A stretch of DNA of 64,000 nt from Urechidicola croceus (GTDB lineage Bacteria; Bacteroidota; Bacteroidia; Flavobacteriales; Flavobacteriaceae), in contig CAJIZG010000005.1 of the NCBI GenBank assembly GCA_905181865.1, forward strand, positions 350,705 to 414,704. The letters are read 5' to 3'. Below are positions 8,449-24,230 of this stretch, one piece after another (the first letter of the stretch is position 1; each line of letters starts with the position of its first letter). Below the pieces are notes generated by a model. The model had not been told where the DNA came from, ran no database searches, and was given only the letters and a program-made list of their open reading frames with translations. The translations under genes were made by a program, and so were the position numbers.

Positions 8449-9073
8449 GAAAAAGTTTTATGTAGTTTGGAGTGGTCATAAAACGGGTGTTTTCACTTCG
8501 TGGAATGTTTGCAAGAAGCATATTACAAATTTTAAAGGTGCCCAATACAAATCGTTTGTAAACGGTGAAGAAGCCGAAATCGCTTTAAAAGGGAAATATA
8601 TTGATTATGTAGGAAAGGATCCTAAACGGATAAAAGTAACTCCTGCCGATTTAAAACGAATCGGTATTCCTATTATACCTTCTCTTTCTGTAGACGCGGC
8701 ATGTAGCGGCAATCCGGGTAAAATGGAGTATCGTGGTGTTGATACTCAAACTAAGAAACAACTTTTTATTCAAGGTCCATTTAAAAAAGGAACAAATAAT
8801 ATCGGAGAGTTTTTAGCTTTGGTGCACGGATTAGGATTTCTGAAAAAAAATAAATCCGAAATCCCTATTTATTCAGATTCAAGAATAGCCATTGGTTGGC
8901 TAAAAAAGGGACAGTGCAGAACGAATTTAAAAATTACGTCAGAGAATAAAGACTTATTTGATTTTATCAAACGCGCTGAAAAATGGTTGAACGAAAACAC
9001 CTATTCAACAAAAATTCTAAAATGGGAAACCAAAGCATGGGGAGAAATCCCTGCTGATTTTGGGAGGAAATAA
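8441..9073 (+). CDS. RNase H with viroplasmin-like N-terminal domain
   Basis: Protein of 210 residues that should cleave RNA in RNA-DNA hybrids. Residues 3-50 form the caulimovirus viroplasmin/RNase HI N-terminal hybrid-binding domain (KFYVVWSGHKTGVFTSWNVC). The catalytic RNase H fold follows, with acidic residues in SVDAACSGNPG, IGEFLALVHG, IYSDSRIAIGW and the C-terminal PADFGRK. It is coupled to purN by an eight-base overlap, an arrangement found in other Flavobacteriia. Confidence 0.9.
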   Translation: MAKKKFYVVWSGHKTGVFTSWNVCKKHITNFKGAQYKSFVNGEEAEIALKGKYIDYVGKDPKRIKVTPADLKRIGIPIIPSLSVDAACSGNPGKMEYRGVDTQTKKQLFIQGPFKKGTNNIGEFLALVHGLGFLKKNKSEIPIYSDSRIAIGWLKKGQCRTNLKITSENKDLFDFIKRAEKWLNENTYSTKILKWETKAWGEIPADFGRK

Positions 9074-9077
9074 AAAG

Positions 9078-10292
9078 TTAGTTTAACATCATCTGTGCCT
9101 TTTTTACAGACTCAACTAAAACATCAATTTCTTCAAAAGTGTTATAAAATGAAAAGGACGCTCTAACCGTTCCAGGAATTTTATAAAAATCCATAATAGG
9201 CTGTGCACAATGGTGACCTGTTCTAACAGCGACTCCTAACTTATCAACGATGGTTCCGATATCATAGGGATGAATTCCTTGAATATTAAATGAAATTACA
9301 GACGTTTTATGAGCAGTGGTTCCGTAAATTCTTAAACCGTCAATAGTCAATAATTTTTCTGTAGCATATTCTAAAAGTTCTTTTTCGCGTTTTTCAATTA
9401 CGTCAAAACCAATATTATTAGCGTAATCTAAAGCAACTCCAAAAGCGATTACTCCAGAAATATTAGGAGTTCCTGCTTCAAACTTGTGAGGTAAGTCAGC
9501 GTAAGTGGTTTTCTCGAAAGTGACCTCTTTAATCATTTCTCCACCACCTTGGTACGGAGGTAGTTTAGTAAGCCATTCCTCTTTCCCATATAAGATTCCG
9601 ACCCCTGTTGGACCATAAATTTTATGCGCAGATGTAACATAAAAGTCGACATCTAATTTTTGAAGATCTGGTTTGATATGCGGACAAGCCTGAGCTCCAT
9701 CAATTAAAACGGCTGCTCCAATAGCATGGGCTTTTTCAATAATTTCTTCAATAGGATTGATAGTTCCTAAAGCGTTTGAAATATGATTTGTAAAGACTAA
9801 TTTAGTCTTGTCTGACAATAATTTATCGTATTCGGACATGATTAATTCACCTTCTTCATTCATCGGAATCACCTTTAAAATGGCTCCTGTTTTTTCACAA
9901 AGCATTTGCCAAGGAACAATATTAGAATGATGTTCTAAGGCTGAAACAATGATTTGATCGCCTTCGTTTAAAATTGATTCAAAACCTGTAGCAACAATAT
10001 TTATACTATGGGTAGTTCCTGATGTAAAAATTATTTCATAGGATTCTTTAATATTGAAATGCTTTTGAATTTTTAATCGCGCCCCTTCATATTTATCCGT
10101 TGCTTCTTGACTTAAAGAGTGCACACCACGATGAATATTAGCGTTGTAATTCGAATAATAATCAACGATTGCGTCTATAACTACTTGCGGTGTTTGAGAC
10201 GTTGCAGCATTATCAAAATATACTAATGGTTTTCCATTAACCTCTCTTTTAAGAATGGGAAAATCAGCTCTAATTTTATCAATATCTAACAT
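9078..10292 (-). CDS. sufS: Cysteine desulfurase SufS
   Basis: PLP enzyme that takes sulfur from cysteine for iron-sulfur cluster assembly. PLP-binding Lys is in TSAHKIYGPTG and the catalytic Cys in RTGHHCAQP. The start was set at the ATG at 10292, giving MLDIDKIRADFPIL, because family members begin there; the longer frame from 10334 adds 14 unlikely residues. In most Flavobacteriia sufS directly follows sufD. Here it is about 10.3 kb from sufD, with a sigma-factor/CHAT block between, and no sufE is next to it. Confidence 0.95.
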   Translation of the reverse strand: MLDIDKIRADFPILKREVNGKPLVYFDNAATSQTPQVVIDAIVDYYSNYNANIHRGVHSLSQEATDKYEGARLKIQKHFNIKESYEIIFTSGTTHSINIVATGFESILNEGDQIIVSALEHHSNIVPWQMLCEKTGAILKVIPMNEEGELIMSEYDKLLSDKTKLVFTNHISNALGTINPIEEIIEKAHAIGAAVLIDGAQACPHIKPDLQKLDVDFYVTSAHKIYGPTGVGILYGKEEWLTKLPPYQGGGEMIKEVTFEKTTYADLPHKFEAGTPNISGVIAFGVALDYANNIGFDVIEKREKELLEYATEKLLTIDGLRIYGTTAHKTSVISFNIQGIHPYDIGTIVDKLGVAVRTGHHCAQPIMDFYKIPGTVRASFSFYNTFEEIDVLVESVKKAQMMLN

Positions 10293-10396
10293 ACTTATAG
10301 GTTGACGTAATTTATCAACAAAATTACAAAACAATGCTTGATTTTATCCTATATCTATTTGATTTGTTTAAAAGGAAAAGAGGTTGTTTACGCTGC

Positions 10397-10424
10397 GTCA
10401 TTCTGAACGGATGTGAAGAATCTT
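10397..10424 (+). repeat. Short dispersed GTCATTCTGAAC-type repeat unit
   Basis: The sequence GTCATTCTGAACGGATGTGA followed by AGAATCTT is of the kind seen as dispersed inverted repeats in Bacteroidota intergenic regions, and relates to the arms of the inverted repeat at 13008-13110. It sits between sufS and the sigma-factor block. Confidence 0.45.
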
Positions 10425-10505
10425 TAAATTGTTCTTAGGGATACATTGAAAGCGAGATTTTTCGCTTGAACTCAAATTGGCATTGAACGTATTAATATAG
10501 ACACC

Positions 10506-11237
10506 CTAAAGCTTCTTCAATAGTTTTTGCGCATTTTTATAATCACCCGCATCACTAGGAATTCTTTTTAAGATCTCACTACATGTTTTGTAGTCTTTTT
10601 GTTTCAATTTGCTTAAAGCCAAATACCAATTCGCACTGCTTTTAAAAACTGAATTACCTTTTGAAATTTGCTTTAAAAGTACTTCGGCTTCAGTAAATTT
10701 ATTCAATTCAATTCCTGAAATGGCCTTATACAATTTAAATTCTTGATTTTCAGATTCAATACTTAATAATTGAGTAAAATAAGTTTCTGCTTCAGTAAAA
10801 TTTTTGTTGTTAAAAGAATTTTCAGCCTTGGTTAGTAATTCGTTTTCACCTCCTCTAACGGTTAAACTGATCTCATTAAAATTAGCAAAATCGCCATATG
10901 TTGGAATTGAAAACAGACTGTACCAATAAATGCCAATGAATATAGCAATGCTCGCTGCCATGGCATATTGCCAAGGTTTAAATCTAATTACTTTTTTGGT
11001 TGGTTCTTTTTTATTGAAATAGGTATCGGAAATATTCTTCAGGTTAGTTTGAAATGAGGCTTGTTTATCTTCATTTTCAAATTTATGCGCTAAAAGGCGA
11101 GACAATTTCTTATAAGTTTCAAAGGCTTGCTTGAAGTCATCTTCATTTTTCAGGCTATTCTCAAAAGAATTGTTAGCGTCCTTGGAAAGGTTTCCAGAAA
11201 GAAATTCTTCAAATAATATATAATCTTGATCTTTCAT
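10506..11237 (-). CDS. Single-pass membrane TPR protein, candidate sigma regulator
   Basis: Protein of 243 residues. Residues 1-80 are hydrophilic and presumably cytoplasmic, one membrane helix spans about 86-107 (WQYAMAASIAIFIGIYWY), and the periplasmic part (about 130-240) shows repeated helices of TPR type (NFTEAETYFTQLL, KFTEAEVLLKQI, YKTCSEILKRI). It starts two bases after the stop of the ECF sigma gene, so the pair is one operon. Position and topology suggest that it holds or regulates the sigma factor. No recognisable classical anti-sigma domain was seen, so this role is inferred. Confidence 0.8.
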   Translation of the reverse strand: MKDQDYILFEEFLSGNLSKDANNSFENSLKNEDDFKQAFETYKKLSRLLAHKFENEDKQASFQTNLKNISDTYFNKKEPTKKVIRFKPWQYAMAASIAIFIGIYWYSLFSIPTYGDFANFNEISLTVRGGENELLTKAENSFNNKNFTEAETYFTQLLSIESENQEFKLYKAISGIELNKFTEAEVLLKQISKGNSVFKSSANWYLALSKLKQKDYKTCSEILKRIPSDAGDYKNAQKLLKKL

Positions 11238-11239
11238 GA

Positions 11240-11821
11240 TTAATACTTTAATTGATTAAACTTTGGCGACTCTTGAACCAACTGCGTTAGTTTTCCAATA
11301 CACAAGGACTTCTTTTTTCGAGCATAGGCGTAAGAAACGTTTAGACTATTTGCTACTTCTTCCATAGATTTTATTTTAAAAGTAGCTTTCAGTAAATCTT
11401 TACATGCCGTACCCAGTTTTTGAAACATCTCATTAAAAAGTGTCTGTTTTTCGCCAAACAAAGAAGTTTCAAAAGACAGTTCTATAGCGTCGTCATCTAT
11501 AGATAGCACTTCATCATTAATTGTTACCTCATTATGAGTATTTTTTTTTAATTCGTTCAACCATTTCCGTTTACATAGCAAAAAGAAGTAGGCATCGAAG
11601 GGACAGGTTAGTTGTAGTTTTTTTTGAGAGGCTTGATTGTAAATAGTAACTAAAGTTTCTTGAATAACATCCTGAGCTTTATCGGAATCACCACCATTCT
11701 TTTTTATATAATTAATGACTTTAGGAGCAAATTTATCATAGATAGCCTGAATGATAAATGAATTGTTTTGCAACAGTCCATCAATGTATTTCTGATCTAC
11801 ATGTATTTTTTTTTCACTCAT
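11240..11821 (-). CDS. ECF-type RNA polymerase sigma factor
   Basis: Sigma-70 family factor of ECF size. Start taken at the ATG at 11821 (MSEKKIHVDQKY), giving 193 residues, because the longer frame adds 18 residues with no similarity. Region 2 is near residues 25-90 (VINYIKKNGGDSDKAQDVIQ; CPFDAYFFLLCKRKW), and region 4 with a helix-turn-helix near 140-175 (SMEEVANSLNVSYAYARKKK). It is the first gene of an operon with the TPR membrane protein, and 117 bases upstream the divergent lipoprotein gene begins. Its likely targets are the two promoters with the shared GGTAACAAA element. Confidence 0.88.
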   Translation of the reverse strand: MSEKKIHVDQKYIDGLLQNNSFIIQAIYDKFAPKVINYIKKNGGDSDKAQDVIQETLVTIYNQASQKKLQLTCPFDAYFFLLCKRKWLNELKKNTHNEVTINDEVLSIDDDAIELSFETSLFGEKQTLFNEMFQKLGTACKDLLKATFKIKSMEEVANSLNVSYAYARKKKSLCIGKLTQLVQESPKFNQLKY

Positions 11822-11867
11822 GAACGCTATTGTTTTTAGCGAATTTAAAAAAAACTTTGACAAAAGA

Positions 11868-11920
11868 GGTAACAAATTGAATTTGCAATTTATATAAGGA
11901 TGTAAAACAAAATTTAAAAC
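11868..11920 (+). promoter_or_regulatory. Duplicated upstream element, copy 1 (candidate ECF promoter)
   Basis: GGTAACAAA at 11868-11876 is followed by TATATAAGGATGTAAAACAA at 11891-11910; the two boxes start 23 bases apart. Copy 2 at 13388 has the same boxes and the same spacing. The GTAAC core resembles the -35 elements of ECF sigma factors, and the ECF gene is divergent from here. Confidence 0.6.
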
Positions 11921-11938
11921 AATAAAAACTTAGAAATT

Positions 11939-12931
11939 ATGAGAACTTTAAAAAACACTTTAGGAACACTTTTAATGACAACTTTAATAGTAACAAGTTG
12001 TAACACAATTGATGATGCTCAAGAATTTTTGGATATCCCAGCAACTGCTCAAGAATTTCAAAATTTAAAAAACGAAGCACTAGATAAATTGACACAAGAG
12101 TTTCAATTCAATGCAGAAGATGGGTATGTAACTTTTACATCGGCTAAAGGGGTAGAAATTGATATTAACGGAGCATGTCTTACTTTAGATGGTTCTTCAG
12201 TAACAGGAAATGTGAACTTAGAGTTTGTTGAGTTATTCGAAAAAGGAAATATGCTAACAACAAATAAAAGTACGATGGGAATTTTGCCAAATGGAGATAG
12301 AGCAATGCTTGTGTCTGGAGGAGAGTTTTTTATAAATGCTACTCAAAATGGAGAGGGATTAGGGACTAATTGTGGTGTTAATGTTAGAATCCCAACCAAC
12401 CTTTCTGGTGGTGATGATCATGACATGGTGATATGGAAAGGAATCGAAGATGAAAAAGGAAATGTAGCATGGGAGGAAGAAAGAGATCAAGACGGTGGTA
12501 AAGGAAATATATTTATTGAAAGAGGAACACAAGGAGGAAATCAGTATTACGCCCTGTTCGGTGGATTTGGATGGTCGAATGTAGATCGTTTCTATAGCGA
12601 TCCAAGACCTAAAACACAAATATTAGTAGATGTGCCAGCTGGGTATGATAATGATAATAGTGCGGTTTACTTATCGTATGACGGAGAAGAAACAGGATTA
12701 GCAAATTTAGATACTTATGATGTCGGACTAGAATTATTTAGTGAACATTATGGTCAAATTCCAATCGGGTTGGAATGTCATGTGATTTTTGCAACGGAAG
12801 AAAATGGAATGTGGAAGTATGCTGTCAAAGCAGTAACAATTGTTGATAACGGAACGGTGGTGATTTCAGATGGGGAAACAGCACTAGTAACAGAAACAGA
12901 ATTAACCACAATTATAAATGGATTGCCATAA
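11939..12931 (+). CDS. Secreted lipoprotein, paralogue 1
   Basis: Protein of 330 residues with a lipoprotein signal ending in VTSCNT (Cys at about 21). Unrecognised by name. The region 60-150 (FTSAKGVEIDINGACL, GNVNLEFVELFEKGNML, LVSGGEFFINATQNG) resembles the ZU5-like beta-sandwich present in many Bacteroidota surface proteins; this is a weak assignment. The end contains HYGQIPIGLECHVIF. The gene at 13459 encodes a close paralogue of the same length and order, and about 60 bases upstream are also copied, so this is a recent tandem duplication. It is divergent from the ECF sigma operon and ends in a hairpin terminator. Confidence 0.83.
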   Translation: MRTLKNTLGTLLMTTLIVTSCNTIDDAQEFLDIPATAQEFQNLKNEALDKLTQEFQFNAEDGYVTFTSAKGVEIDINGACLTLDGSSVTGNVNLEFVELFEKGNMLTTNKSTMGILPNGDRAMLVSGGEFFINATQNGEGLGTNCGVNVRIPTNLSGGDDHDMVIWKGIEDEKGNVAWEEERDQDGGKGNIFIERGTQGGNQYYALFGGFGWSNVDRFYSDPRPKTQILVDVPAGYDNDNSAVYLSYDGEETGLANLDTYDVGLELFSEHYGQIPIGLECHVIFATEENGMWKYAVKAVTIVDNGTVVISDGETALVTETELTTIINGLP

Positions 12932-12966
12932 ATAAAAACGTTTAAGTTAGTTCGGTTGAATGTAAG

Positions 12967-12997
12967 AGTCCTAGAGAATTTTCTCTAGGACTTTTTT
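12967..12997 (+). terminator. Terminator of lipoprotein 1
   Basis: Inverted repeat AGTCCTAGAGAA / TTCTCTAGGACT with a two-base gap between the arms (effectively a small loop) followed by TTTTTTG. Lies 36 bases past the stop. Confidence 0.8.
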
Positions 12998-13007
12998 GTT
13001 TTTGGTT

Positions 13008-13110
13008 GTCATGTCGACCTTAGGAGAAATCTTATATAAGTAAGCACATTAGATTAGAAATTAAACTAAGTTAATTTTTAGGATGCGATCTCTCCTAGTT
13101 TCGAAATGAC
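13008..13110. repeat. Imperfect inverted repeat of about 100 bp
   Basis: Left arm GTCATGTCGACCTTAGGAGA and AATC (13008-13031) is complementary to the right arm GATCTCTCCTAGTTTCGAAA and TGAC (13087-13110), with an A/T-rich centre. This looks like a dispersed REP or MITE-like unit of Bacteroidota. A related half-unit is at 10397. Confidence 0.6.
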
Positions 13111-13387
13111 TCAGTACAAAGTGAGCACTCTCAGAATATCCATTCGAACTCCGTCGTGAGTTGTTTATAGTCCGATCAAGATTATTAGAGTCGCATACTT
13201 ATTCTGAGAAGTTTTAAAAACCATATAGGTCTTTTAGAAATACTTACAAGATCACTCAGACCTTGCAGGACAGTCAAGTCTTTTTATTTTAGAGGTTTTC
13301 TAAAGAGCTTAACATTCTTATAATAAAATTTTTACTTATTAGTTTCAGTAGTAAAATTTAAAAAATATAATTTTTTTTCAAAAAAAG
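13111..13387. other. Intergenic spacer between the two lipoprotein genes
   Basis: No gene seen. It has short direct and inverted fragments (for example AGACCTTGCAGGACAGTCAA near 13258-13280 and ATAGGTCTTTTAG near 13225), which look like worn repeat sequence. Together with the terminator and inverted repeat it fills the 527 bases between the paralogues. Confidence 0.4.
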
Positions 13388-13440
13388 GGTAACAAAATAA
13401 CGCATCAATTTATATAAGGGTGTAAAACAAATTTTAAAAC
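13388..13440 (+). promoter_or_regulatory. Duplicated upstream element, copy 2 (candidate ECF promoter)
   Basis: GGTAACAAA at 13388-13396 and TATATAAGGGTGTAAAACAA at 13411-13430, again 23 bases from box start to box start. Sequence between the boxes differs from copy 1, while the boxes and the leader up to the start codon are nearly identical. Confidence 0.6.
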
Positions 13441-13458
13441 AATAAAAACTTAGAAATT

Positions 13459-14439
13459 ATGAAAATTTTAAAAAACACTTTAGGAACAATTTTAATGGCA
13501 ACTTTAATTTTAACTAGTTGTAACAAAAATGAGAATGATGATATATTTATTGAAACGCCACCAACGGCTCAAGAATTTCAAAATTTAAAAGAAGCGGCAT
13601 TAGAAAATTTAACACAAGAATTTCAATTCAATGCTGAAGATGGTTCAACAACATTTACTTCAGTAAAAGGCGTTCAATTAACAATTAACGGAACGTGTCT
13701 TTCTAATAATGGGTCTGCTGTTGCAGGAAGTGTAGTTTTAGAATTCGTAGAATTATTTGAAAAAGGAAACATGCTTATTACTAATAAACCAACGATGGGT
13801 TTATTGCCAAACGGAGATAAAGCGATGTTGATTTCGGGAGGGGAGTTCTTTATAAACGCCACTCAGAATGGTGAAGATTTGGATATTAATTGTTCAATTC
13901 AGTTGATTGTGCCGTCTGCTCTTAGCGGTGGAACTGATCCAGCGATGAGCTTATGGAATGGAATAATTGATGAAGACGATAATTTAGAGTGGGGAGAAGT
14001 AAACGCTGACCCTGCAGGAAATCAAGGAGGTGTTTTTGCTGAAGGCGGACAATATTACGCTTTTCTTGATCAATTTGGATGGTCTAACGTAGATAGATTT
14101 TATAATGATCCGAGACCAAAAACAACATTGCAAATCGCTGTTCCAGAAGGATACGATAATGAAAATAGTAGTGTTTACTTGTCTTATGATGGTGAAGAAA
14201 CCGGATTAGCAAATATGGACACTTATGATCCTGGAACTAAATTATTCAGTGAGCATTATGGACAAATTCCAATCGGATTAGAATGTCATGTAATATTTGT
14301 GTCAGAAGACAACGGGCTATGGAAATATGCTATCAAGGCGGTAACGATTGTAAATAACGGAATCATCACATTTACAGATGGAGAAACGAGTTCAGATATT
14401 GAAGCAGTATTAGTTGCATCAATTAACGGATTGCCATAA
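13459..14439 (+). CDS. Secreted lipoprotein, paralogue 2
   Basis: Protein of 326 residues, colinear with the lipoprotein at 11939 across its whole length: a lipobox (LTSCNK), TAQEFQNLK, LTQEFQFNAEDG, LEFVELFEKGNML, SGGEFFINATQNG, FGWSNVDRFYNDPRPKT and HYGQIPIGLECHVIF. The middle (about residues 150-205) is the most variable. Function is unknown; both copies are likely anchored in a membrane and exposed in the periplasm or on the surface. It is followed by a worn copy of the dispersed leader element and then by the barrel protein. Confidence 0.83.
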   Translation: MKILKNTLGTILMATLILTSCNKNENDDIFIETPPTAQEFQNLKEAALENLTQEFQFNAEDGSTTFTSVKGVQLTINGTCLSNNGSAVAGSVVLEFVELFEKGNMLITNKPTMGLLPNGDKAMLISGGEFFINATQNGEDLDINCSIQLIVPSALSGGTDPAMSLWNGIIDEDDNLEWGEVNADPAGNQGGVFAEGGQYYAFLDQFGWSNVDRFYNDPRPKTTLQIAVPEGYDNENSSVYLSYDGEETGLANMDTYDPGTKLFSEHYGQIPIGLECHVIFVSEDNGLWKYAIKAVTIVNNGIITFTDGETSSDIEAVLVASINGLP

Positions 14440-14444
14440 GGAAT

Positions 14445-14526
14445 ACGAAAGGAGCATGTTTAACTTTTTATCCCTCCAAGGAAATAATTAATAGCGAATA
14501 GTATGTGACGAATAAAAAATAATAAT
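14445..14526 (+). repeat. Dispersed leader element, copy A (worn)
   Basis: Starts six bases past the preceding stop with ACGAAAGGAGCATGTT, contains CCAAGGAAAT and AATAGCGAATAGTATGTGAC, and ends AATAAAAAATAATAATG. It aligns with copies at 57447, 62319, 47290 and 26429 (reverse). The small frame present in the 57447 and 62319 copies is broken here: one extra base precedes the SE-x-H/Y-V-T part and a stop replaces Gln. Confidence 0.6.
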
Positions 14527-14558
14527 GATGGGTGCATGAAAAAGAAACCCCAGTTTTG

Positions 14559-14590
14559 CAAAAAGTGATGATTGATTTCATCGCTTTTTG
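14559..14590 (+). terminator. Hairpin before the PKD/barrel gene
   Basis: CAAAAAGTGATG pairs with CATCGCTTTTTG (one wobble) around ATTGATTT. It lies between lipoprotein 2 and the ATG at 14616, followed by a T-rich stretch. Confidence 0.5.
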
Positions 14591-14615
14591 TATATTTAAA
14601 TTATATTTCAAAATC

Positions 14616-16571
14616 ATGAAAATAAAACTCCAAGTGATAATCGCTTTTTTTGTCGCGATGACAACATATTCACAACAAAAATTTTCGACTGATTCAATTG
14701 TAAGATCAGTAACGATTGAATCTAAACTCTCAGGAAATACCCTTGAATTCTCTCCAATTGCTCCACCATTGAATCAAATTGCAGGAGCACCAAAAGCATT
14801 TTATACTTATTTTTGGGAATTTGGTGATGGTCATTATAGTACCGATTCTCTACCAAAACATACTTATAGAAACATAGGAGAATACAATGTAAAATTATGG
14901 GCTACTAATAATTATGATACGGGAAAACCTCCAACGACAAGGCCAAAAAAAGTAACGGTAATGTCAGAAGAAAATGATTATAATGACACTTCATCTATGT
15001 ATGAGGATTTCACCCTAAAACGAAATCGAGAGCCTATTCCAAACGAAGAAATAGTAGTTGTGATGAGCTATAAGAACCCGAAGGACTTTGTAGCGAATGG
15101 TAAGATTTACCTTTTTTATAACGAACAAAAATACAAGGATAATAATTTTAATATTAAGGATACGAGAATGTATCACAATGAGCAAATAATTGAAGATGAA
15201 GAATCGTTTGTCTATGCAAATGACTTGGATGATAATCAGATGTTAATGGCGACTTCTAATGGTGGGATGGTCACCTATAATTCTCAAGAATTAGATACGA
15301 TAAACAAAACAAATTTACCCTTAACCCTTGAAGACTCAAAAGTATATTATAAAAATTGGAATATTTTAGAATTTAATGATATCCAGCCTAATGAAGAGCG
15401 AAACGTGTTTTTAACAATGGAAACGCCACAGGAAATGTTGAAAGATACCAGTGCTATAATTTCAATTCGAGGCGTATATGTTCCAGATAGAAATTACGAT
15501 AATCATCAAGTAAAAGACATGGAGATGGAAATTGTGACTTCGCATGACCCAAATAAAATGGCTTCAAATGGAACGTTTATGAACTATCGATTGGTTCGAT
15601 TTAAGCGGTTAAAATACAAAATTAGATTTCAGAATAATGGGGAAGGTCCGGCAAGAACAATTCGCTTAGAAACAGATTTGCCAGATATGTTTGATAAGTC
15701 AACTTTAAAAGTGGAAGATATGTATCCGAAATGTGAGATTTGTCCGAAGCAAAAAGTAGCATACAGTTGTTTGGACACGATTTTTACAGATTCTCAAGTA
15801 ATATTTACGTTTAAAAACATTTATTTACCCGGAAGCGAACAAAAAGGAGTAATGGATAAAGACTCTACAAAGGGATTTGTAAAGTATAGTATTAAGTTTG
15901 GAAAGGATTTTCATAAGAAGAATACGAAAAGTCAGACAGCCATAGTTTTTGATAAAAATGATCCAATCATGACCAATTATTCTACAACTCGATTTATTCC
16001 TGGAATTTCAATTGGTGCAAAGGTGGGATATAATTATTATCCCGAATTAGAGGCGTCTACAAGTTATTTTATAGGCGCAACGATTTCGCCGTACAAATCA
16101 TATCGCTGGTATTGGCAAGTGGAATGGTTGAATAGTTTTAATTCTTACACTAGTAAAGTTACTATTTTTGAGGAATTTACAGGTGGTGCCCGGGGATTTA
16201 AACAGTTGCAGCGTAGAACCACTTCAAATAGTTATGAATCTATTAATTGGGAAGTCCCAGTACTGGTTAGATATAATATTAATAATTATATTGGAGTTGG
16301 AGCAGGGATACAGGCAAATATAAATATTAGCGAAAAACAGAATGAGAGCATTTTAATCGAAGACTTTGAAGGAGATAGAGCCGATTTTTTAATTGATAGT
16401 AGGATGCAAGTTAATGAAACTACCGAGTCATTCACTAATTTTAAAGCTGGATTGTTATTCGAAATTACAGGAGGTTTTGCAAGAATTGGTCCGAGTGTTG
16501 GGGCCCGCTATGTTTTAAATTCTGAAAATGAACGTAACTATTGGCAACTGTATGCTATTTGGAAGTTTTAA
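14616..16571 (+). CDS. PKD-domain protein with predicted C-terminal outer-membrane barrel
   Basis: 651 residues from the ATG at 14616, which gives a clean signal peptide (MKIKLQVIIAFFVAMTTYSQ); the longer frame from 14532 reads through a terminator hairpin. A PKD fold occupies about residues 35-95 (YTYFWEFGDGHYSTDS, HTYRNIGEYNVKLWATN). The middle part (about 250-480) has a conserved-repeat, adhesin-like region with NGTFMNYRLVRFKRLKYKIR and FQNNGEGPARTIRLETDLP. The last 170 residues alternate as beta strands (GISIGAKVGYNYYPELEAS ... YWQLYAIWKF) and end in Phe, typical of an outer-membrane barrel. Six bases before the CHAT gene, thus one operon. It may present a sensor domain at the outer membrane. 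Confidence 0.8.
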   Translation: MKIKLQVIIAFFVAMTTYSQQKFSTDSIVRSVTIESKLSGNTLEFSPIAPPLNQIAGAPKAFYTYFWEFGDGHYSTDSLPKHTYRNIGEYNVKLWATNNYDTGKPPTTRPKKVTVMSEENDYNDTSSMYEDFTLKRNREPIPNEEIVVVMSYKNPKDFVANGKIYLFYNEQKYKDNNFNIKDTRMYHNEQIIEDEESFVYANDLDDNQMLMATSNGGMVTYNSQELDTINKTNLPLTLEDSKVYYKNWNILEFNDIQPNEERNVFLTMETPQEMLKDTSAIISIRGVYVPDRNYDNHQVKDMEMEIVTSHDPNKMASNGTFMNYRLVRFKRLKYKIRFQNNGEGPARTIRLETDLPDMFDKSTLKVEDMYPKCEICPKQKVAYSCLDTIFTDSQVIFTFKNIYLPGSEQKGVMDKDSTKGFVKYSIKFGKDFHKKNTKSQTAIVFDKNDPIMTNYSTTRFIPGISIGAKVGYNYYPELEASTSYFIGATISPYKSYRWYWQVEWLNSFNSYTSKVTIFEEFTGGARGFKQLQRRTTSNSYESINWEVPVLVRYNINNYIGVGAGIQANINISEKQNESILIEDFEGDRADFLIDSRMQVNETTESFTNFKAGLLFEITGGFARIGPSVGARYVLNSENERNYWQLYAIWKF

Positions 16572-16577
16572 TATGAT

Positions 16578-19169
16578 ATGTTAAAAAGTAGCCTGATTTA
16601 TATATTCTTGTTTTTTGGTTGTTTTGTCTTTTCACAGCAACTAGAGGAAGAGATTTATTCAGCAACAGTATCTTTTATTGAGAATCAAAATCAAGCATCA
16701 TTTCAAATTTTAAACGAAAAAGCAAAAATTGTTCAAACTCAAGTTTCAACGAAAGGGGAGCAGCTAGCATTTGTATTTCTGCAATGTAATAAAGCATATT
16801 ATTTAAAGAACAAAAGCAGTTTTAATAAAGCAATTATCGCTTATGAAGATGCTTGGAATCGATATTCGAAGTACCAATTATCGGGGTATGATATTATTGA
16901 ATTTTGTTTAAAACCCCTAGGAGAACTCTACACGGTTTCTAAAGACTATGCCAACGCAGAAAACACGATTCGACTGTATTTGTCTTTAGCAAAAAAAAAA
17001 GGAAGTCAAACTCAAATAAATGCAGCAATAATCAACCTTTCTATAGTATATCAAAGTCTTGGGAAGCATCGAGATGTTGTGAATAATATTACAGATGCTT
17101 TGAAATCGGCAACTGCAAATGCTATTCAAATAGAAAAGTTGAGAAATATAAAAACAGATAGTCAGATTGCATTGAGACAAGTTTTAACGGTAGACAAGAT
17201 TCCAAAAACCAATACGTATAATTACTTTTTAAAGAGATCGCAATTGGATTTGCAAAATGGTGATTTTCGTGCAGCAGAAAACAATTTCGAGCAATCTAAA
17301 AAGTTATTTTTTAAACAAGAAGATATCACCGCAAGAAGGCTGGCGAAATTTTATGTGTATGAATCGGATCTGTTTTTAAAAGTAAAGAAAAAGGAAGATG
17401 TATTGCATAGTTTGTCAATGGCTATGAAATCATTGTTGCCAAATTTTAAAGGAGATGGCATTCCGAATCGGGAAGATCTATATTCAGAAAATACGTTTAT
17501 AGATATTTTTGATTTGATTGGTGACCTTCAAACAGATTTAGAAATAGCAATTAAATATTACAACTTGAGTTTCTATGTAGCCGATTTGTTACGTGAAAAT
17601 ATTTCTTCTCAAGAAACTAAAATTTTAAATCAGATCACCAATAGAATTCGCAGCGAAAAATGTATTGAATTACTGTATGAACACTATTTAAAATTGAAGG
17701 ATGAAGGGTTTCTAATAAGTGCTTTTCAATATGCTGAAAATAGTAAGGCGTCTGTTCTAAAAGAAATATTGCAAAAAAAATTCGTACTTCAAGAACATCC
17801 TAATGTTGAGGTTCTTGAAAAAGAACAAGAGTTACTTCAAGAGCAAGAATCTTTAACAAATGAATTGATAAAAGAGCGGATGGGTAAGTCGAGCATGGTT
17901 GTTTTAAATACTCTGGCGATGCAATTAAGCGAGAATAATATTCAATTAAAAGCAGTTAAAAATGAAATCTTAAAGAAGTATCCGTCATCAAAAGGAAATG
18001 AGATTTCAATAGATAAATTGAAAGCTCGCTTGAAACAAGATGAGGTTACCTTGGTCGAATATTTTTATGGCAAACGAGGGTTATATCAATTTGTTATTAG
18101 TGCCGAAAAAGCCTCATTTTATAGAATTGAATTGAGCGATGAGGTTACAGAGGATGTCTCAAATTTCATTGGTTTTTTTGATAATGCAGCATCTATAAAT
18201 AATGATGTAAGTAACTACTCAACTCAGGCGTTTGAAACCTTTCAATCATTGAATTTGAAAAATGTTTCGTCTACTCAAAATTTAATGATTATCCCAGATG
18301 GATTGCTAAATTTTATTCCTTTTGAAGCATTACTAACGGAGCGCACAGAAACCATGAATTTTTCAAAGATGCCTTTTTTCTTGAAGCGTAAAAAGGTAGT
18401 TTATAATTCAAGCGTGGAGTTTTATTTGAAAGATTATAAGACTCAAGGCGATAAGAATTTATTAGGTATTTTTCCGGTATTTGATAACACCAATCAGCAA
18501 TTGACACATTCAATAGAGGAAGCTAAGGCTATAGAAAATGCGATGAATGCTACCTTATTGATGAGAGACGAAGCCACTAAAAGCAGTTTTAAAGAAAATA
18601 GTTCGAAATATGGAATATTACATCTTTCAACACATGCCAATAGTGGTGATTATATCACCCCAGCGAGTATTGATTTTTATGATGAAAAATTATATCTGAA
18701 CGAATTGTATAGTCTTGATTTAAATCCGGAATTAGTGGTTTTAAGTGCCTGTGAAACAGGTGTAGGTAAATTGCAAAAAGGGGAAGGTGCCATGAGCATT
18801 GCTCGAGGATTTCAATATGCAGGTACTCAAAATATTCTATTTTCATTGTGGAAAATAAATGACCAATCGACATCAATGATTATGGAGTCTTTTTACAAGC
18901 AGTATAGAAACCATGCGTCGTTATATACCGCAAACCACGATTCTAAATTGAACTATTTGCACGATAGATCAATTAGTAATAGCAAGAAATCACCTTATTA
19001 TTGGGCTCCATTTATGTATTATGGAAAATTAACTCCTCCAGAAAAATCCAATGCAAGTTTATTATTACTAGGTGTTGGAATTCTTTTCGTTGTATTGGTT
19101 TTTATTTTGAAACGTTTTCATGTTTTTAGAAAACTTGCAATGGATTTAGGAAAGAACAACAAAAAATAA
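16578..19169 (+). CDS. TPR-CHAT caspase-like protease with C-terminal membrane helix
   Basis: 863 residues. N-terminal signal (MLKSSLIYIFLFFGCFVFSQ), then TPR-type helices through about residue 400, then a CHAT domain of the separase/caspase clan. The catalytic dyad is visible: His686 in LHLSTHANSG and Cys725 in VVLSACETGVG, followed by the expected GEGAMSIARGFQYAGTQNIL and SLWKIND. A hydrophobic segment at about 827-846 and a basic tail (KRFHVFRKL) anchor the C terminus. The bulk should therefore lie in the periplasm. Substrate unknown. CHAT proteases cut specific partners, so the neighbouring barrel protein, lipoproteins and membrane TPR protein are candidates. Intact and in an operon with the barrel gene. 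Confidence 0.9.
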   Translation: MLKSSLIYIFLFFGCFVFSQQLEEEIYSATVSFIENQNQASFQILNEKAKIVQTQVSTKGEQLAFVFLQCNKAYYLKNKSSFNKAIIAYEDAWNRYSKYQLSGYDIIEFCLKPLGELYTVSKDYANAENTIRLYLSLAKKKGSQTQINAAIINLSIVYQSLGKHRDVVNNITDALKSATANAIQIEKLRNIKTDSQIALRQVLTVDKIPKTNTYNYFLKRSQLDLQNGDFRAAENNFEQSKKLFFKQEDITARRLAKFYVYESDLFLKVKKKEDVLHSLSMAMKSLLPNFKGDGIPNREDLYSENTFIDIFDLIGDLQTDLEIAIKYYNLSFYVADLLRENISSQETKILNQITNRIRSEKCIELLYEHYLKLKDEGFLISAFQYAENSKASVLKEILQKKFVLQEHPNVEVLEKEQELLQEQESLTNELIKERMGKSSMVVLNTLAMQLSENNIQLKAVKNEILKKYPSSKGNEISIDKLKARLKQDEVTLVEYFYGKRGLYQFVISAEKASFYRIELSDEVTEDVSNFIGFFDNAASINNDVSNYSTQAFETFQSLNLKNVSSTQNLMIIPDGLLNFIPFEALLTERTETMNFSKMPFFLKRKKVVYNSSVEFYLKDYKTQGDKNLLGIFPVFDNTNQQLTHSIEEAKAIENAMNATLLMRDEATKSSFKENSSKYGILHLSTHANSGDYITPASIDFYDEKLYLNELYSLDLNPELVVLSACETGVGKLQKGEGAMSIARGFQYAGTQNILFSLWKINDQSTSMIMESFYKQYRNHASLYTANHDSKLNYLHDRSISNSKKSPYYWAPFMYYGKLTPPEKSNASLLLLGVGILFVVLVFILKRFHVFRKLAMDLGKNNKK

Positions 19170-19221
19170 TCAAAATGTAAAGTTTTATGGTTTATTTTTG
19201 TTACAATCAATTGGAATTTTA

Positions 19222-20634
19222 ATGCGTAAACTTTTAAAATATACGGCACTTCTTTTTATCCTAGTTATAGGTTATTTGGGGTGTACAAATTTTCAAAAAT
19301 TTATTATTATATCTGGTTTATCCGCAAAATGGGTGGCTTCGGGAATTTTTGTTGCAGAAAGAACACAATGGTCTATTGAAGAATCTGATAGTGATTTTTC
19401 GCCAATTACGTGGGCTAAGAATGAAGTGGATCTTCAGGACAAATCGGTGAGCACTTCGGTCTTTGGTTTACAAGAAAGAAAAGCGATTTATAGAAAAGGA
19501 TTAGGAACGGTGGTTACGAATGATGGATTTGATCCTGATATTCCATATTTAAGTCCGAATAGGCAGCGAGTTGCGAATAATTTAGAATTTCCCTATGGTG
19601 ATTTGCCTCAAAAAGACACTATCTTCTCAAACGTTAATTATGATGATTTGGAGAAGGTAGTTGTCGATTATTTTAATGAGAATGATGAAACGAATACTAC
19701 CCGTTCTTTGTTAATAGTGTATAGGAATCAAATTATAGCGGAGAAGTATGCTGATGGTTTTGATAAAGATTCTAAGATGTTAGGATGGTCTATGTCCAAA
19801 AGTATCCTGAGTGCAGTATATGGTGTTATGGAGCAGCAAGGAAGAATTGGGAAAGACGATTTCGCGCCAATTGAATCATGGAAGAATGATGGGCGTTCAA
19901 AAATAACCATTAATAACTTGTTACAAATGAATAGTGGGTTGGAGTGGGAAGAAGATTATACTAAGATTTGCGATGTTACGGAAATGCTGTATGTAGCATC
20001 GGATATGACAAAACCTCAATTAAAGAAGCCTTTAATTGGGAAGTCAAATGAAACGTGGAATTATTCTTCAGGAACTACAAATTTACTATCTGGTATTTTA
20101 AGGCAGCAGTTAAAGTCGCATCAAGAATATCTTGATTTTTGGTACGCCGAATTGATTGATAAAATAGGGATGAATTCTATGGTGCTTGAAGCAGATTTGG
20201 CGGGTAATTATGTGGCGTCTTCATATGCATGGGCAAATACAAGGGACTGGGCAAAATTCGGCTTACTTTATTTGAATAAAGGCAATTGGAATGGGAAACA
20301 AATTTTAAGTGAAGATTGGGTAAAGTATACTGCTACCCCAACAAATGGATCGAAAGGAATATATGGCGCGCAGTTTTGGCTAAATGCTGGAGGTCATTTG
20401 ATAGACGTTCCAAAGGACATGTACATGGCTAGCGGTTATCAAGGTCAGTATGTTTTTATTATTCCATCTAAAGAATTGGTGATTGTTCGGATGGGGGTTA
20501 ATTATAATAATACGAAAGAACTGTTGAAAAAGAGACCCGTAAAAGAGAATGAAATAGAAGCCGTTGTTGAGTTTGAATTAAAAAATAAAGCCAACAATAT
20601 TTTGTTGGCTCAAATTCTATCGACACTAAATTGA
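19222..20634 (+). CDS. Beta-lactamase-family serine hydrolase
   Basis: 470 residues from the ATG at 19222 (MRKLLKYTALLFI); an upstream TTG at 19198 adds eight residues. A lipobox-like GYLGCTN follows the first hydrophobic segment. The serine beta-lactamase/class C-like fold has the nucleophile Ser190 in SMSK (SxxK), a YSSG segment and VRMGVNY near the end. Such proteins are esterases or D-amino-peptidases more often than true beta-lactamases. It follows the CHAT gene by 52 bases. Its last codons contain the hairpin of the opposite-strand suf operon. Confidence 0.86.
   Translation: MRKLLKYTALLFILVIGYLGCTNFQKFIIISGLSAKWVASGIFVAERTQWSIEESDSDFSPITWAKNEVDLQDKSVSTSVFGLQERKAIYRKGLGTVVTNDGFDPDIPYLSPNRQRVANNLEFPYGDLPQKDTIFSNVNYDDLEKVVVDYFNENDETNTTRSLLIVYRNQIIAEKYADGFDKDSKMLGWSMSKSILSAVYGVMEQQGRIGKDDFAPIESWKNDGRSKITINNLLQMNSGLEWEEDYTKICDVTEMLYVASDMTKPQLKKPLIGKSNETWNYSSGTTNLLSGILRQQLKSHQEYLDFWYAELIDKIGMNSMVLEADLAGNYVASSYAWANTRDWAKFGLLYLNKGNWNGKQILSEDWVKYTATPTNGSKGIYGAQFWLNAGGHLIDVPKDMYMASGYQGQYVFIIPSKELVIVRMGVNYNNTKELLKKRPVKENEIEAVVEFELKNKANNILLAQILSTLN
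20589..20610 (-). terminator. Terminator of the suf operon inside the neighbouring gene
   Basis: On the minus strand AGCCAACAA / TTGTTGGCT with a 4-base loop, followed by TTATTTTTT. It lies about 36 bases past the sufD stop and is part of the coding sequence of the convergent serine hydrolase. Confidence 0.75.
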
Positions 20635-20645
20635 TCTCAAATAAA

Positions 20646-21968
20646 CTACATATCAAAGCCTAGTTTAACATTCAATTTGTTTGCGATTAATTTTGTGATT
20701 CTAGTTTTTAACTCTGGAATTTTAATTTTCTCCACCACTTCATTTCCAAAAGCATATAGTAATAAAGCCTTTGCTTCTTTGGTTGGAATTCCGCGAGATT
20801 GCATATAGAATAGAGCACTTTCGTCTAATTGCCCAATAGTACACCCATGTGAACATTTCACATCATCTGCAAATATTTCTAACTGTGGTTTTGAATTGAT
20901 TGTTGCTTTATCTCCTATTAATATGTTATTGTTTTGTTGAAAAGCATTTGTTTTCTGTGCTTCTCGATTAACAATTACTTTGCCATTAAAAACTCCTGTT
21001 GAGGCGTCATCATAAATTCCTTTATATAATTCAAAACTCTCACAATTGGGAGACTTATGATGCATTAAGGTATGATTATCTACATGCTGCTTTTTATCTA
21101 AAATAGAGATACCATTGATATGCGATTCTATGCGCTCGCCTTCATGAAAGAATTCAACATTGTTTCTAGTCAATTTACCTCCAAAAGAAAAGGTGTTAAC
21201 CGAAGCGATACTACTTTCTTTTTGTTGAACAAAAGTACTATCTATTAAAGAGGCGTTTTCACGATCATTTTGAATCTTGTAATAATCGACAATAGCTCGT
21301 TTTCCAGCAAAAACTTCAGTAACAGCATTGGTTAAAACAGTATTATTACTCAAGCTTTGATGGCGTTCAATAATTTCAACATGTGAATTTTCTCCAACAA
21401 TAATAAGGTTTCTAGGTTGTAATAAAATATCTTTTTCACCTCCAGTATAGAAATTTACGATTTGAATAGGCTTCGGTAAAATTTTATTTTTGCCAATATG
21501 TATATAAGCACCTTCTATGGTAAACGCAGTATTTAAATCTGTAAGGCTATTATTATTTTGCGCAATTTTATTAAAGTAGTTGTCTAAAACTAGTTGGTAT
21601 TGAGGTTTTTTCAAAACTGAAGACATCAGGCAGATATCAAAGCCGTCATGCGTAGTTTCAGATAAATAGGAACTATAAATGCCGTCAACAAAAACAACTT
21701 TATAAGATTCAATTTCATGTAAAAAATACTTTTTTACGTCTTTAAATTCAATATCACTTTCTTCTTTCGGAAAAACACTATAATCGTGATTTAAAACTGA
21801 CTTTAAAGAGGTGTATTTCCATTCTTCATCTTTTTTTGTAGGGAAACCTTCTTTTTCAAAAGAAGCCATGGCTTTCGTTCTAATATCGTGTATACTAGAA
21901 TCTAAATCTACTTTTCCAAGGTTTTCCATAACCATGAAAGATGATATTAATTTTTCTTGTAATTCCAT
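20646..21968 (-). CDS. sufD: SUF scaffold protein SufD
   Basis: Component of the SufBCD scaffold for iron-sulfur cluster assembly. 440 residues with the SufBD beta-helix core and its closing segments DDVKCSHGCTIGQLDESALFYMQSRGI, with the conserved Cys and His, and ETRIT-like ending. It starts three bases after the sufC stop. Weaker N-terminal conservation (DEEWKYTSL) is normal for SufD. Confidence 0.95.
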   Translation of the reverse strand: MELQEKLISSFMVMENLGKVDLDSSIHDIRTKAMASFEKEGFPTKKDEEWKYTSLKSVLNHDYSVFPKEESDIEFKDVKKYFLHEIESYKVVFVDGIYSSYLSETTHDGFDICLMSSVLKKPQYQLVLDNYFNKIAQNNNSLTDLNTAFTIEGAYIHIGKNKILPKPIQIVNFYTGGEKDILLQPRNLIIVGENSHVEIIERHQSLSNNTVLTNAVTEVFAGKRAIVDYYKIQNDRENASLIDSTFVQQKESSIASVNTFSFGGKLTRNNVEFFHEGERIESHINGISILDKKQHVDNHTLMHHKSPNCESFELYKGIYDDASTGVFNGKVIVNREAQKTNAFQQNNNILIGDKATINSKPQLEIFADDVKCSHGCTIGQLDESALFYMQSRGIPTKEAKALLLYAFGNEVVEKIKIPELKTRITKLIANKLNVKLGFDM

Positions 21969-21971
21969 CTT

Positions 21972-22715
21972 TTATATGTCTTTAACCCAATCATACCCTT
22001 TTTCCTCTAGCTCGTAGGCCAATTCTTTGCCTCCAGATTTTACAATTTTTCCGTTGTGAAGAACATGAACAAAATCTGGAACAATATAGTCGAGTAAGCG
22101 CTGATAGTGTGTAATAAGTATGACTGCGTTCTCTGCACTTTTAAGTTTGTTTACGCCATTGGCAACAACCTTTAAGGCATCAATGTCTAATCCAGAATCA
22201 GTTTCATCTAATATGGCAAGTTTAGGTTCTAACATGGCCATTTGAAAAATTTCGTTACGCTTTTTCTCACCACCTGAAAACCCTTCATTCAATGATCGTG
22301 ATAAAAACTTACGATTCATTTCTAACAAAGCAGACTTTTCACGAATTAACTTTAGCATATCTTTAGCAGGTAAATCTTCCATGCCATTCGCTTTACGTTT
22401 TTCGTTTATCGCCGTTTTAATAAAGTTTGTTGTACTAACTCCTGGAATTTCAATAGGATACTGAAAACTCATAAAAACTCCTTTATGAGCTCTTTCGTCA
22501 GGAGATAATTCTAGAATACTTTTATTTTCTAAAATAACATCTCCTTTAGTAACTACAAACGTTTCGTTTCCAGCGATTACTGAAGCTAATGTACTTTTCC
22601 CAGAACCGTTTGGCCCCATGATTGCATGAACTTCTCCCGCTTTTACATTTAAATTAATTCCTTTCAGAATTCCTTTATTTTCTATCTCTGCGTGTAAATT
22701 TTTTATTTCTAACAT
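21972..22715 (-). CDS. sufC: SUF ATPase SufC
   Basis: ABC-type ATPase of the SufBCD complex, 247 residues. Walker A GPNGSGKSTLAS, signature FSGGEKKRNE and Walker B LAILDETDSGLD are all present, together with the SufC-specific TSFMSFQYP-like HKGVFMSFQYPIEIPG stretch. Same strand between sufB and sufD. Confidence 0.97.
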   Translation of the reverse strand: MLEIKNLHAEIENKGILKGINLNVKAGEVHAIMGPNGSGKSTLASVIAGNETFVVTKGDVILENKSILELSPDERAHKGVFMSFQYPIEIPGVSTTNFIKTAINEKRKANGMEDLPAKDMLKLIREKSALLEMNRKFLSRSLNEGFSGGEKKRNEIFQMAMLEPKLAILDETDSGLDIDALKVVANGVNKLKSAENAVILITHYQRLLDYIVPDFVHVLHNGKIVKSGGKELAYELEEKGYDWVKDI

Positions 22716-22781
22716 TCCTAATATGATGATTTGTGTAGTCGTTTAATCGTTTGCATTTTTATTTATGAACAATTCAACAAA

Positions 22782-24230
22782 TTAACCCACTGATCCTTCT
22801 AATGATATTTCTAATAATTTTTGTGCTTCTACGGCAAATTCCATTGGTAACTTATTCAACACATCTTTGCTAAAACCATTTACAATCAAAGCTATTGCCT
22901 TTTCTGTTTCAATGCCTCTTTGGTTACAATAGAATAATTGGTCTTCACCAATTTTACTTGTAGTTGCTTCATGCTCAATTTTAGCCGATTTGTTTTTTGA
23001 TTCGATATAAGGAAAAGTATGTGCACCACATTTATTTCCCATTAGCAATGAATCACACTGTGAAAAATTACGTGCGTTTTCTGCTCTCGATCCAATTTGA
23101 ACGAGTCCTCTATAAGAGTTTTGAGATTTTCCAGCGGAGATTCCTTTAGAAATGATTGTACTCTTAGAGTTTTTGCCAAGATGAATCATTTTTGTTCCAG
23201 TATCGGCTTGTTGGTAATTGTTTGTAACAGCAATTGAATAAAATTCACCTACCGAATTATCTCCTTTTAAAATACAACTTGGATATTTCCAAGTAACCGC
23301 GCTTCCTGTCTCTACTTGTGTCCAAGAAATTTTAGAACTGTCATGGCAAATCCCTCTTTTTGTTACAAAGTTGAATACACCACCTTTTCCATTTTTATCT
23401 CCAGGATACCAGTTTTGAACAGTCGAATACTTAATTTCTGCATCATCCATGGCAATCAATTCCACAACTGCAGCGTGCAATTGGTTTTCATCGCGACTTG
23501 GTGCAGTGCAACCTTCTAAATAACTTACATAACTTCCTTCATCGGCAATTAGAAGTGTGCGCTCAAATTGACCTGTACCGCCTTCATTAATTCTGAAATA
23601 AGTAGATAATTCCATGGGGCATTTTACACCTTTTGGAATGTAGCAAAAAGATCCATCCGTAAAGACGGCAGAATTTAAGGCTGCGTAGAAGTTATCCGTT
23701 TTAGGAACAACTGTTCCCATATATTTTTTTACCAAATCAGGATGCTGCTGTATTGCTTCAGAAATCGGCATAAATAAGATACCTTTTTCAGCCAAAGTCG
23801 CTTTAAATGTTGTCGCTACAGAAACAGAATCTACCACAATATCCATTGCGACATTATTCATCTTTTTTTGTTCATCAGTAGAAATTCCTAATTTTTTATA
23901 CATCGCTATTAAATCTGGATCTACATCGTCTAATGTTTTATTAGGGTCTACAGATTTCGGTGCGGAATAATATGCAATATTTTGAAAGTCAGGCTTAGGG
24001 TAATTTACATTTGCCCAATCTGGCTCTTTCATTCCTTCCCAAATACGAAAAGCCTCTAAACGCCATTCGGTCATCCATTCTGGTTCATTTTTCTTTTTAG
24101 AAATAGCACGAACTATATCTTCATTTAACCCTTTTGGAAAGGTGTCTGATTCTATATCAGTATAAAAACCATACTCATATTCTTGCGTTGCAAGTTCTTC
24201 TCTTAGGTCGTCTTCCGTATACTTTGACAT
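22782..24230 (-). CDS. sufB: SUF scaffold protein SufB
   Basis: Core scaffold on which clusters are built. 482 residues with conserved segments [38 protein letters not shown], the [15 protein letters not shown] part and the C-terminal [23 protein letters not shown]. It is 16 bases after the IscA/SufA-type gene and upstream of sufC. Confidence 0.97.

Follow-up and report, generated by a model that had tools for sequence, protein, structure and literature searches.

Comparison with described systems

Craspase, a type III-E CRISPR system, is cytoplasmic. We compared it and other described systems with a six-gene unit of Urechidicola croceus that encodes an extracytoplasmic function (ECF) sigma factor, a membrane protein with tetratricopeptide repeats (TPRs), two lipoproteins, a PKD-barrel protein and a TPR-CHAT protein. 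The unit spans 10506-19169 of the window, which here means the whole stretch of 64,000 nucleotides analysed (GCA_905181865.1, contig CAJIZG010000005.1, positions 350,705-414,704 of the forward strand). This locus encodes an ECF sigma factor, a predicted membrane TPR anti-sigma factor and a predicted periplasmic TPR-CHAT site-1 protease, and from covariation among homologues we consider it likely that the protease cuts the anti-sigma factor at Arg128.

According to the available portion of PMC10028731, Craspase resembles this arrangement in having a TPR-CHAT protease (Csx29), in the cutting of a sigma inhibitor (Csx30, which inhibits the ECF factor CASP-sigma) and in an ECF output that acts on promoters within the system's own locus. 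It differs in being RNA-guided, in that Csx30 is not a membrane TPR protein, and in cutting after Leu, Met or Ala (PMC11106740, available in part). None of the module genes matched the gRAMP/Cas7-11, Csx30 or Csx31 families (seven proteins in two profile searches, six in PADLOC; the rest of the genome was not searched for CRISPR). Assignment as a defence system was rejected, as PADLOC gave weak matches only (Csx1, E 0.009; TPR, E 6e-4).

DegS is a PDZ serine protease. In RseA-DegS-RseP signalling, as outlined in the same portion of PMC10028731, a membrane anti-sigma factor is cut on the periplasmic side and an ECF factor is freed; the site-1 enzyme of our locus would instead be a separase-like cysteine protease with TPRs. 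CalpL-CalpT-CalpS and SAVED-CHAT are defence proteases that share single features with the locus, CalpL cutting an anti-sigma factor and SAVED-CHAT being a CHAT protease, but they are activated by cyclic oligoadenylate, and the accessible part of the source does not mention a membrane anti-sigma factor (PMC11229360). FecR, Plug and TonB-receptor gave no match in the module proteins (Pfam). Systems of the FecA-FecR-FecI type also signal from the envelope to ECF factors, and we know of no CHAT protein in these or in the Dma anti-sigma systems of Bacteroidota. The Dma systems share envelope signalling to ECF factors, as described in the available part of PMC13088901. Among the titles and abstract openings listed in our literature searches, no paper on such a system was found besides the Craspase work.

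Genes and predicted topology of the locus

The genes and residues on which the analysis turns are the following.
10506..11237, minus strand: TPR protein of 243 amino acids, predicted anti-sigma factor with a cytoplasmic N-terminal part, one transmembrane helix (93-111) and a periplasmic TPR domain by predicted topology (open reading frame list; Pfam TPR_19; positive-inside charges; model mb9301ed05f78, mean predicted local distance difference test, pLDDT, 87)
10845..10904, minus strand: predicted periplasmic linker, anti-sigma residues 112-131, between the transmembrane helix and the first TPR helix (alignment and structure model)
10854..10856, minus strand: Arg128 codon, the P1 position of the predicted cut by CHAT (conservation, covariation and model, below)
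11240..11821, minus strand: ECF sigma factor of 193 amino acids, with its start most likely the ATG at 11821 (Sigma70_r2 in Pfam; TIGR02937 sigma70-ECF above its cut-off)
11939..12931, plus strand: LIP1, lipoprotein paralogue with a lipobox-like Cys
13459..14439, plus strand: LIP2, lipoprotein with a lipobox-like Cys and two predicted beta domains
14616..16571, plus strand: signal peptide-PKD-DUF7619-DUF7849 protein with an apparent C-terminal barrel, predicted outer-membrane partner (Pfam PKD_4, DUF7619 and DUF7849; homologue alignment)
16578..19169, plus strand: signal peptide-TPR-CHAT protein with a C-terminal transmembrane segment, predicted periplasmic site-1 protease (Pfam CHAT, E 3e-45; topology)
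18519..18521, plus strand: Glu648 codon of CHAT, predicted S1 residue (first rank in coevolution scans)
18633..18635, plus strand: His686 codon of CHAT, predicted catalytic residue (invariant)
18750..18752, plus strand: Cys725 codon of CHAT, predicted catalytic residue (invariant)
18861..18863, plus strand: Asp762 codon of CHAT, predicted S1 residue (second rank in coevolution scans; separase Asp in the literature)
19053..19109, plus strand: C-terminal transmembrane anchor of CHAT (826-844), followed by a tail rich in Lys and Arg (hydropathy)

The original prediction, made from the letters alone, had described an ECF and a TPR gene two bases apart and divergent from paralogous lipoprotein genes; these open reading frames were confirmed, with LIP1 and LIP2 66% identical. 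Its signal peptide, PKD and apparent barrel in the following protein stand, but the start is most likely at 14616, where an ATG is followed by a signal peptide, rather than at 14532. In the alignment of this protein the W-K-F end is invariant. The TPR-CHAT gene does begin six bases past the end of the PKD gene, and its His686 and Cys725 are intact and invariant across 24 aligned CHAT homologues, as are E648 and D762. In a larger alignment the His686 column held His in 173/173 CHATs; these had been selected by their Cys motif, so that the Cys count is not independent. The window genome holds one CHAT match only.

The TPR protein is predicted to be an anti-sigma factor from its operon position, the helical N-terminal part of its structure model and a weak match to the anti-sigma profile NF047528 (E 6e-4, far below its cut-off). 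A stretch rich in Lys and Arg precedes its transmembrane helix, and the 16 residues after it contain neither; by this charge pattern the TPR domain should face the periplasm. The C-terminal helix claimed earlier for CHAT was found, and a signal-like N-terminal stretch (MLKSSLIYIFLFFGCFVFSQ) is now added to it. Given this start and the C-terminal transmembrane segment with its Lys/Arg-rich tail, the TPR and CHAT domains should also face the periplasm. The same topology recurs among relatives by simple hydropathy, with no trained predictor: the charges place the N-terminus of the anti-sigma factor inside in 154/161 of the pairs used, a C-terminal transmembrane segment occurs in 157/158 CHATs, with the tail more positive in 142/157, and an N-terminal hydrophobic stretch occurs in 143/158. 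The lipoprotein model has two beta domains, the first of which resembles GAIN/ZU5 at a middling Z score.

Residue 128 of the anti-sigma factor lies 17 amino acids past the transmembrane helix. It is Arg or Lys in 29/32 aligned rows, and the position after it is Gly, Ser or Thr in 30/32. In the model, Arg128 sits in a coil (118-131) that leads from the transmembrane helix to the first TPR helix.

The predicted CHAT pocket covaries with the anti-sigma linker

When the two proteins were read side by side, CHATs without an acid at 648 or 762 were found paired with anti-sigma factors having Met or Lys at the 128 site. The rule relating pocket and linker was set down before 40 further loci were fetched, and a second set of 60 stretches was likewise registered beforehand. 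By eye, Arg was present in 28/30 usable pairs of the first held-out set with E648 and D762 (E+D), whereas it was present in 0/9 with other pockets. An alignment-free regular expression for the linker found Arg in 121/129 E+D pairs and 6/32 others; it caught stray Arg residues and was replaced by a realignment of all anti-sigma factors that made no use of the CHATs and tolerated a shift of +/-1 residue, a measure chosen after the second held-out result had been seen. After realignment, Arg was found in 72/75 E+D pairs against 0/10 others in the discovery set, in 29/31 against 0/9 in the first held-out set, and in 20/23 against 1/13 in the second, where 34/60 stretches had a usable CHAT and gave 36 pairs. 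Across all 161 pairs, Arg accompanied 121/129 E+D pockets but 1/32 pockets lacking either acid (Fisher 1.3e-24, uncorrected for ancestry). The 32 sites facing other pockets were 19 Met (one beside Lys), 10 Lys, 1 Gln, 1 Arg and 1 other. These counts leave out anti-sigma factors outside about 200-340 amino acids or without a CHAT on the stretch, and CHATs with a short segment or without the Cys motif (L275 in the second held-out set); a truncated anti-sigma factor (L210) is absent from the count by eye and included in the realigned totals.

The association also emerged from scans of whole alignments. Positions 648 and 762 ranked first and second of 280 CHAT columns in a scan of 125 pairs, and in the full scan of 161 pairs 648-128, 762-128 and 684-128 were the top three of 63,433 column pairs. 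CHAT residue 684, the third partner of anti-sigma residue 128, lies two residues N-terminal to the catalytic His and may be a further pocket residue.

Shared ancestry was addressed with a quick tree of 158 CHATs, built with columns 648 and 762 left out. On it the pocket changed at least eight times and the linker at least nine times. A Pagel-type test on this one tree favoured the dependent over the independent model (likelihood ratio 43.6, p 8e-9), and 0/5000 simulations of independent evolution reached the observed association.

Pocket chemistry and clan CD proteases

In clan CD proteases, the available parts of three sources describe a P1 Arg bound by an acid where helix alpha1 begins (Asp163 of RgpB, Asp365 of MALT1, Glu917 of modelled separase) and also by an acid after beta4 (separase Asp2151, Asp1080 and Asp2070; PMC4357240, PMC4626109, PMC10317155). 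In our CHAT, E648 lies shortly past the hydrophobic LLGIFPVF, where a helix probably begins, and D762 lies in a WxxxD motif past the catalytic Cys. In our reading, judged by motif and order, these two residues would correspond to the alpha1 and the separase post-beta4 places. The proposed likeness to separase, RgpB and MALT1 lies in acids for a P1 Arg at places that correspond by motif and order; those enzymes differ from this CHAT in hosts, substrates and domain partners.

When solved structures were searched, the full CHAT profile matched TPR proteins only. The CHAT-domain profile gave 8rot_B as its best match, covered from position 124 on only and with Asp kept in the 762 motif; 7zoq and Csx29 7y9x were matched as well. 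Four solved chains named 'CHAT domain protein', which we take to be Craspase subunits, are gapped at 648 and carry Ser at 762 in their four alignments with this profile. For such a pocket without acids, a cut after Leu, Met or Ala, as the available part of PMC11106740 reports for Craspases, is what the rule would expect.

Linkage of CHAT, ECF and anti-sigma genes

The original prediction had called for a search of flavobacterial genomes for co-occurrence of the CHAT protein with the ECF/TPR pair. In 149 genomes of the family, 49/52 anti-sigma places and 45/48 ECF places lay within 10 kb of a CHAT gene, where random placing expects 0.64 and 0.55, respectively. CHAT orthologues (E < 1e-90) occurred at 19 places; 18 had both ECF and anti-sigma genes within 10 kb and the 19th was at a contig edge. 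Loci with CHAT and barrel genes but no ECF/TPR pair, named earlier as the pattern that would speak against the idea, were looked for and are rare: all 20 strong barrel matches adjoin a CHAT gene or a contig-edge CHAT fragment, 19 are beside ECF and TPR genes, and 19 are beside a lipoprotein gene.

Eighty loci were fetched with the CHAT alignment, of which 42 hold a close orthologue (L004-L047 minus L042 and L043). In 37/42, anti-sigma and ECF genes are divergent from lipoprotein, PKD-barrel and CHAT genes; contig ends truncate L009, L017, L032 and L036, and L004 is a genuine exception. Distant CHATs, too, often adjoin an ECF gene and a TPR anti-sigma gene: of 72 weaker matches (E between 1e-90 and 1e-20), 50 are close to an ECF or anti-sigma match. 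Conversely, stretches picked by an anti-sigma match contained a CHAT gene in 40/54 (first set) and 36/60 (second set) and an ECF gene in 44/54 and 54/60. The ECF/anti-sigma/CHAT triad is older than the six-gene unit.

A linker Arg was considered as a sign of a CHAT neighbourhood and rejected, as anti-sigma factors with no CHAT on their stretch keep Arg in 28/41 (loose regular expression). On a Tenacibaculum contig (L055:8339-23751), one ECF/anti-sigma pair has beside it five tandem CHAT genes and then a sixth open frame, which runs off the end of the stretch.

Proposed mechanism and alternatives

The pathway that we propose would begin at the PKD-DUF7619-barrel protein, predicted to lie in the outer membrane with periplasmic N-terminal domains, which may pass a signal from the envelope to the TPR region of CHAT. 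Active CHAT would then take Arg128 into an acidic S1 pocket formed by Glu648 and Asp762, the step to which the coevolution points, and His686/Cys725 would cut the linker after Arg128, just outside the membrane. The shortened anti-sigma factor could be processed further, perhaps by an M50 (RseP-type) protease, so that sigma is freed. The window genome has one M50 protease; 14/14 control genomes also have one, which gives no special support for a site-2 step. Finally, free sigma would transcribe LIP1 and LIP2, along with a small number of further genes for surface or secreted proteins, from GGTAACA-N16-KATATA, as the promoters described below suggest. That CHAT cleaves the TPR regulator and so releases the sigma factor had been put forward in the original prediction, and linkage, matching topology and residue-level coevolution now argue for such a predicted cut.

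Several observations weigh against this proposal. The single-column measure fixed in advance for the second held-out set (an --add alignment) gave Arg in 14/23 E+D pairs against 0/13 others, a weaker separation than after realignment. Eight E+D pairs lack Arg (L067, L069, L072, L184, L216, L248, L256 and L276), and one pair of the other kind, L272 (Q+D), has it. L072, L256 and L276 carry ATLSG at the site despite the E and D of their pockets, a consistent exception. Of the independent pairs of lineages differing in the pocket, eight on the best tree, four lie on well-supported branches; in these four the linker differed in the same direction in an average of 2.7, was alike in 1.3 and in no case differed in the opposite direction, and with so few pairs the sign test was not significant. 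L004 has barrel and CHAT genes alone on 22 kb, and 22/72 weaker CHATs have no ECF or anti-sigma match within 10 kb. In the other direction, the fetched stretch lacked a CHAT gene for 14/54 and 24/60 anti-sigma loci, many of which nevertheless retain the Arg, Lys or Met site; a different protease, or one encoded far away, may act on these. Lastly, Jc-Craspase tolerates substitutions around its site (available part of PMC11106740), so that strictness at P1 is not to be expected of every CHAT and the code is perhaps loose in that branch.

Covariation indicates contact rather than catalysis, and CHAT might accordingly leave the linker uncut and bind it as a pseudosubstrate or scaffold, binding alone holding or freeing sigma; pseudosubstrates that block clan CD enzymes include securin and the gingipain prodomain, according to sources available in part. 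We regard this as unlikely, as the catalytic His is kept in every aligned CHAT of the set selected by the Cys motif and the Gly, Ser or Thr that follows position 128 suits a P1' place. It is somewhat less probable still that the role of CHAT is to process or set free the lipoproteins or the barrel protein, with shared regulation as its only tie to sigma. Lipoprotein and barrel genes do lie close by in the complete orthologous loci, but the ECF/anti-sigma linkage persists in many loci without a lipoprotein or barrel match, and the coevolution found is with the anti-sigma factor, in a scan that covered CHAT-anti-sigma pairs only. Least probable of all is that the covariation mirrors only the shared ancestry of CHAT and anti-sigma subfamilies: the roughly eight pocket switches, with four independent pairs on well-supported branches, leave some room for it, but none of the simulations reproduced the association, and residue 128 and the active-site columns stand out among all column pairs in a chemically sensible way.

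Cleavage at Arg128 by the partner CHAT therefore remains our preferred reading, and it may extend beyond this locus. No substrate is known to us for any of the envelope CHAT proteins, which are common in Bacteroidota. We lean, with less assurance than for the locus itself, towards the view that CHATs are envelope site-1 proteases throughout this phylum, each paired with a particular anti-sigma factor through a P1-S1 code, and that several copies in a genome form insulated protease-sigma channels, each for different surface proteins. In the code proposed from the paired sequences, the residues at 648 and 762 would specify P1 as follows: E+D for Arg; E+E, E+A, D+E and V/I/M/N+E for Lys; and L/A/G/S with E, D or N for Met. 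A cut at Arg128 would provide envelope CHATs with a substrate and a cleavage site, together with a specificity code testable by single mutations, and would link separase-like proteases to envelope sensing. The Craspase principle, a TPR-CHAT protease cutting a sigma inhibitor, may then be one case of a wider theme.

Predicted promoters and regulon

Two promoter-like sites lie upstream of the lipoprotein genes.
11868..11899, plus strand: predicted ECF promoter of LIP1, GGTAACAAA-N14-TATATAAGG
13388..13419, plus strand: predicted ECF promoter of LIP2

The string GGTAACAAA-N14-TATATAAGG occurs twice in the window genome, 5' of LIP1 and of LIP2. The pattern GGTAACA-N16-KATATA was found between the ECF and barrel genes in 33/37 complete loci (65 sites). 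The 20 genomes that carry the module, in whole or in part, gave 63 hits against 14 for the reversed control, and 12 module-free genomes gave 5 against 7. Of the 63 hits, 33 fall between ECF and barrel genes (in 18/20 genomes) and 4 within the ECF gene; a single one precedes a solitary lipoprotein gene, and the remaining 25 are at other places. Nine of the last group, picked by hand, were all intergenic and 52-230 bases 5' of a gene whose product had, by eye, a signal peptide or lipobox. The conservation of these sites supports a predicted regulon of the sigma factor in which GGTAACA-N16-KATATA promoters serve the two lipoprotein genes and a small number of genes for other surface or secreted proteins.

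One of these nine, a third copy of the motif in the window genome (L114; G000:C2:121700-121728), lies 67 bases 5' of an open reading frame of 84 amino acids with a signal-like start. In L119 (G074), a copy lies 230 bases 5' of a gene whose product has curlin-like repeats by eye. Among relatives, an extra small gene with its own promoter copy stands between the ECF and lipoprotein genes in 3/4 loci read. It varies by lineage, encoding a signal-peptide protein with two similar halves or a protein with one transmembrane segment (L005, about 6139-6577; L018, about 6239-6536), and L044 has four consecutive promoter-like sites in its place. Lipoprotein homologues at G135:C1:445896-446885 (L123) and G045:C10:141629-142573 (L125) have no ECF, anti-sigma, barrel or CHAT match on the fetched stretch and no promoter motif.

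Other features of the region

Three further features were recorded.
12964..12995, plus strand: terminator-like hairpin 3' of LIP1
14557..14592, plus strand: terminator-like hairpin in the interval between LIP2 and the PKD gene
19198-20634: beta-lactamase-like gene, outside the six-gene unit

Both hairpins are weak candidates, the region holding 5 against 4.6 expected in shuffles. A promoter and terminator consensus scan of the region showed no excess over shuffles, and Rfam at the gathering threshold matched no RNA element in 9000-21000.

The original prediction had extended the module from 10506 to 20634. Its six genes stand as a unit, but that end takes in the beta-lactamase-like gene, which was rejected as a module member: it has no match in the 37 complete loci and lies between sufS and sufD in the same-genus genome G113. 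This gene belongs to the older suf neighbourhood. G113 gave zero matches to all five module families at the thresholds used, and at the corresponding site sufS, the beta-lactamase-like gene and sufD are directly consecutive; with the site empty there, the six genes look gained or lost as a block. In the window genome the module interrupts a sufB-C-D...S run (window 9078-24230), and sufD adjoins sufS in three other genomes (G019, G134 and G121).

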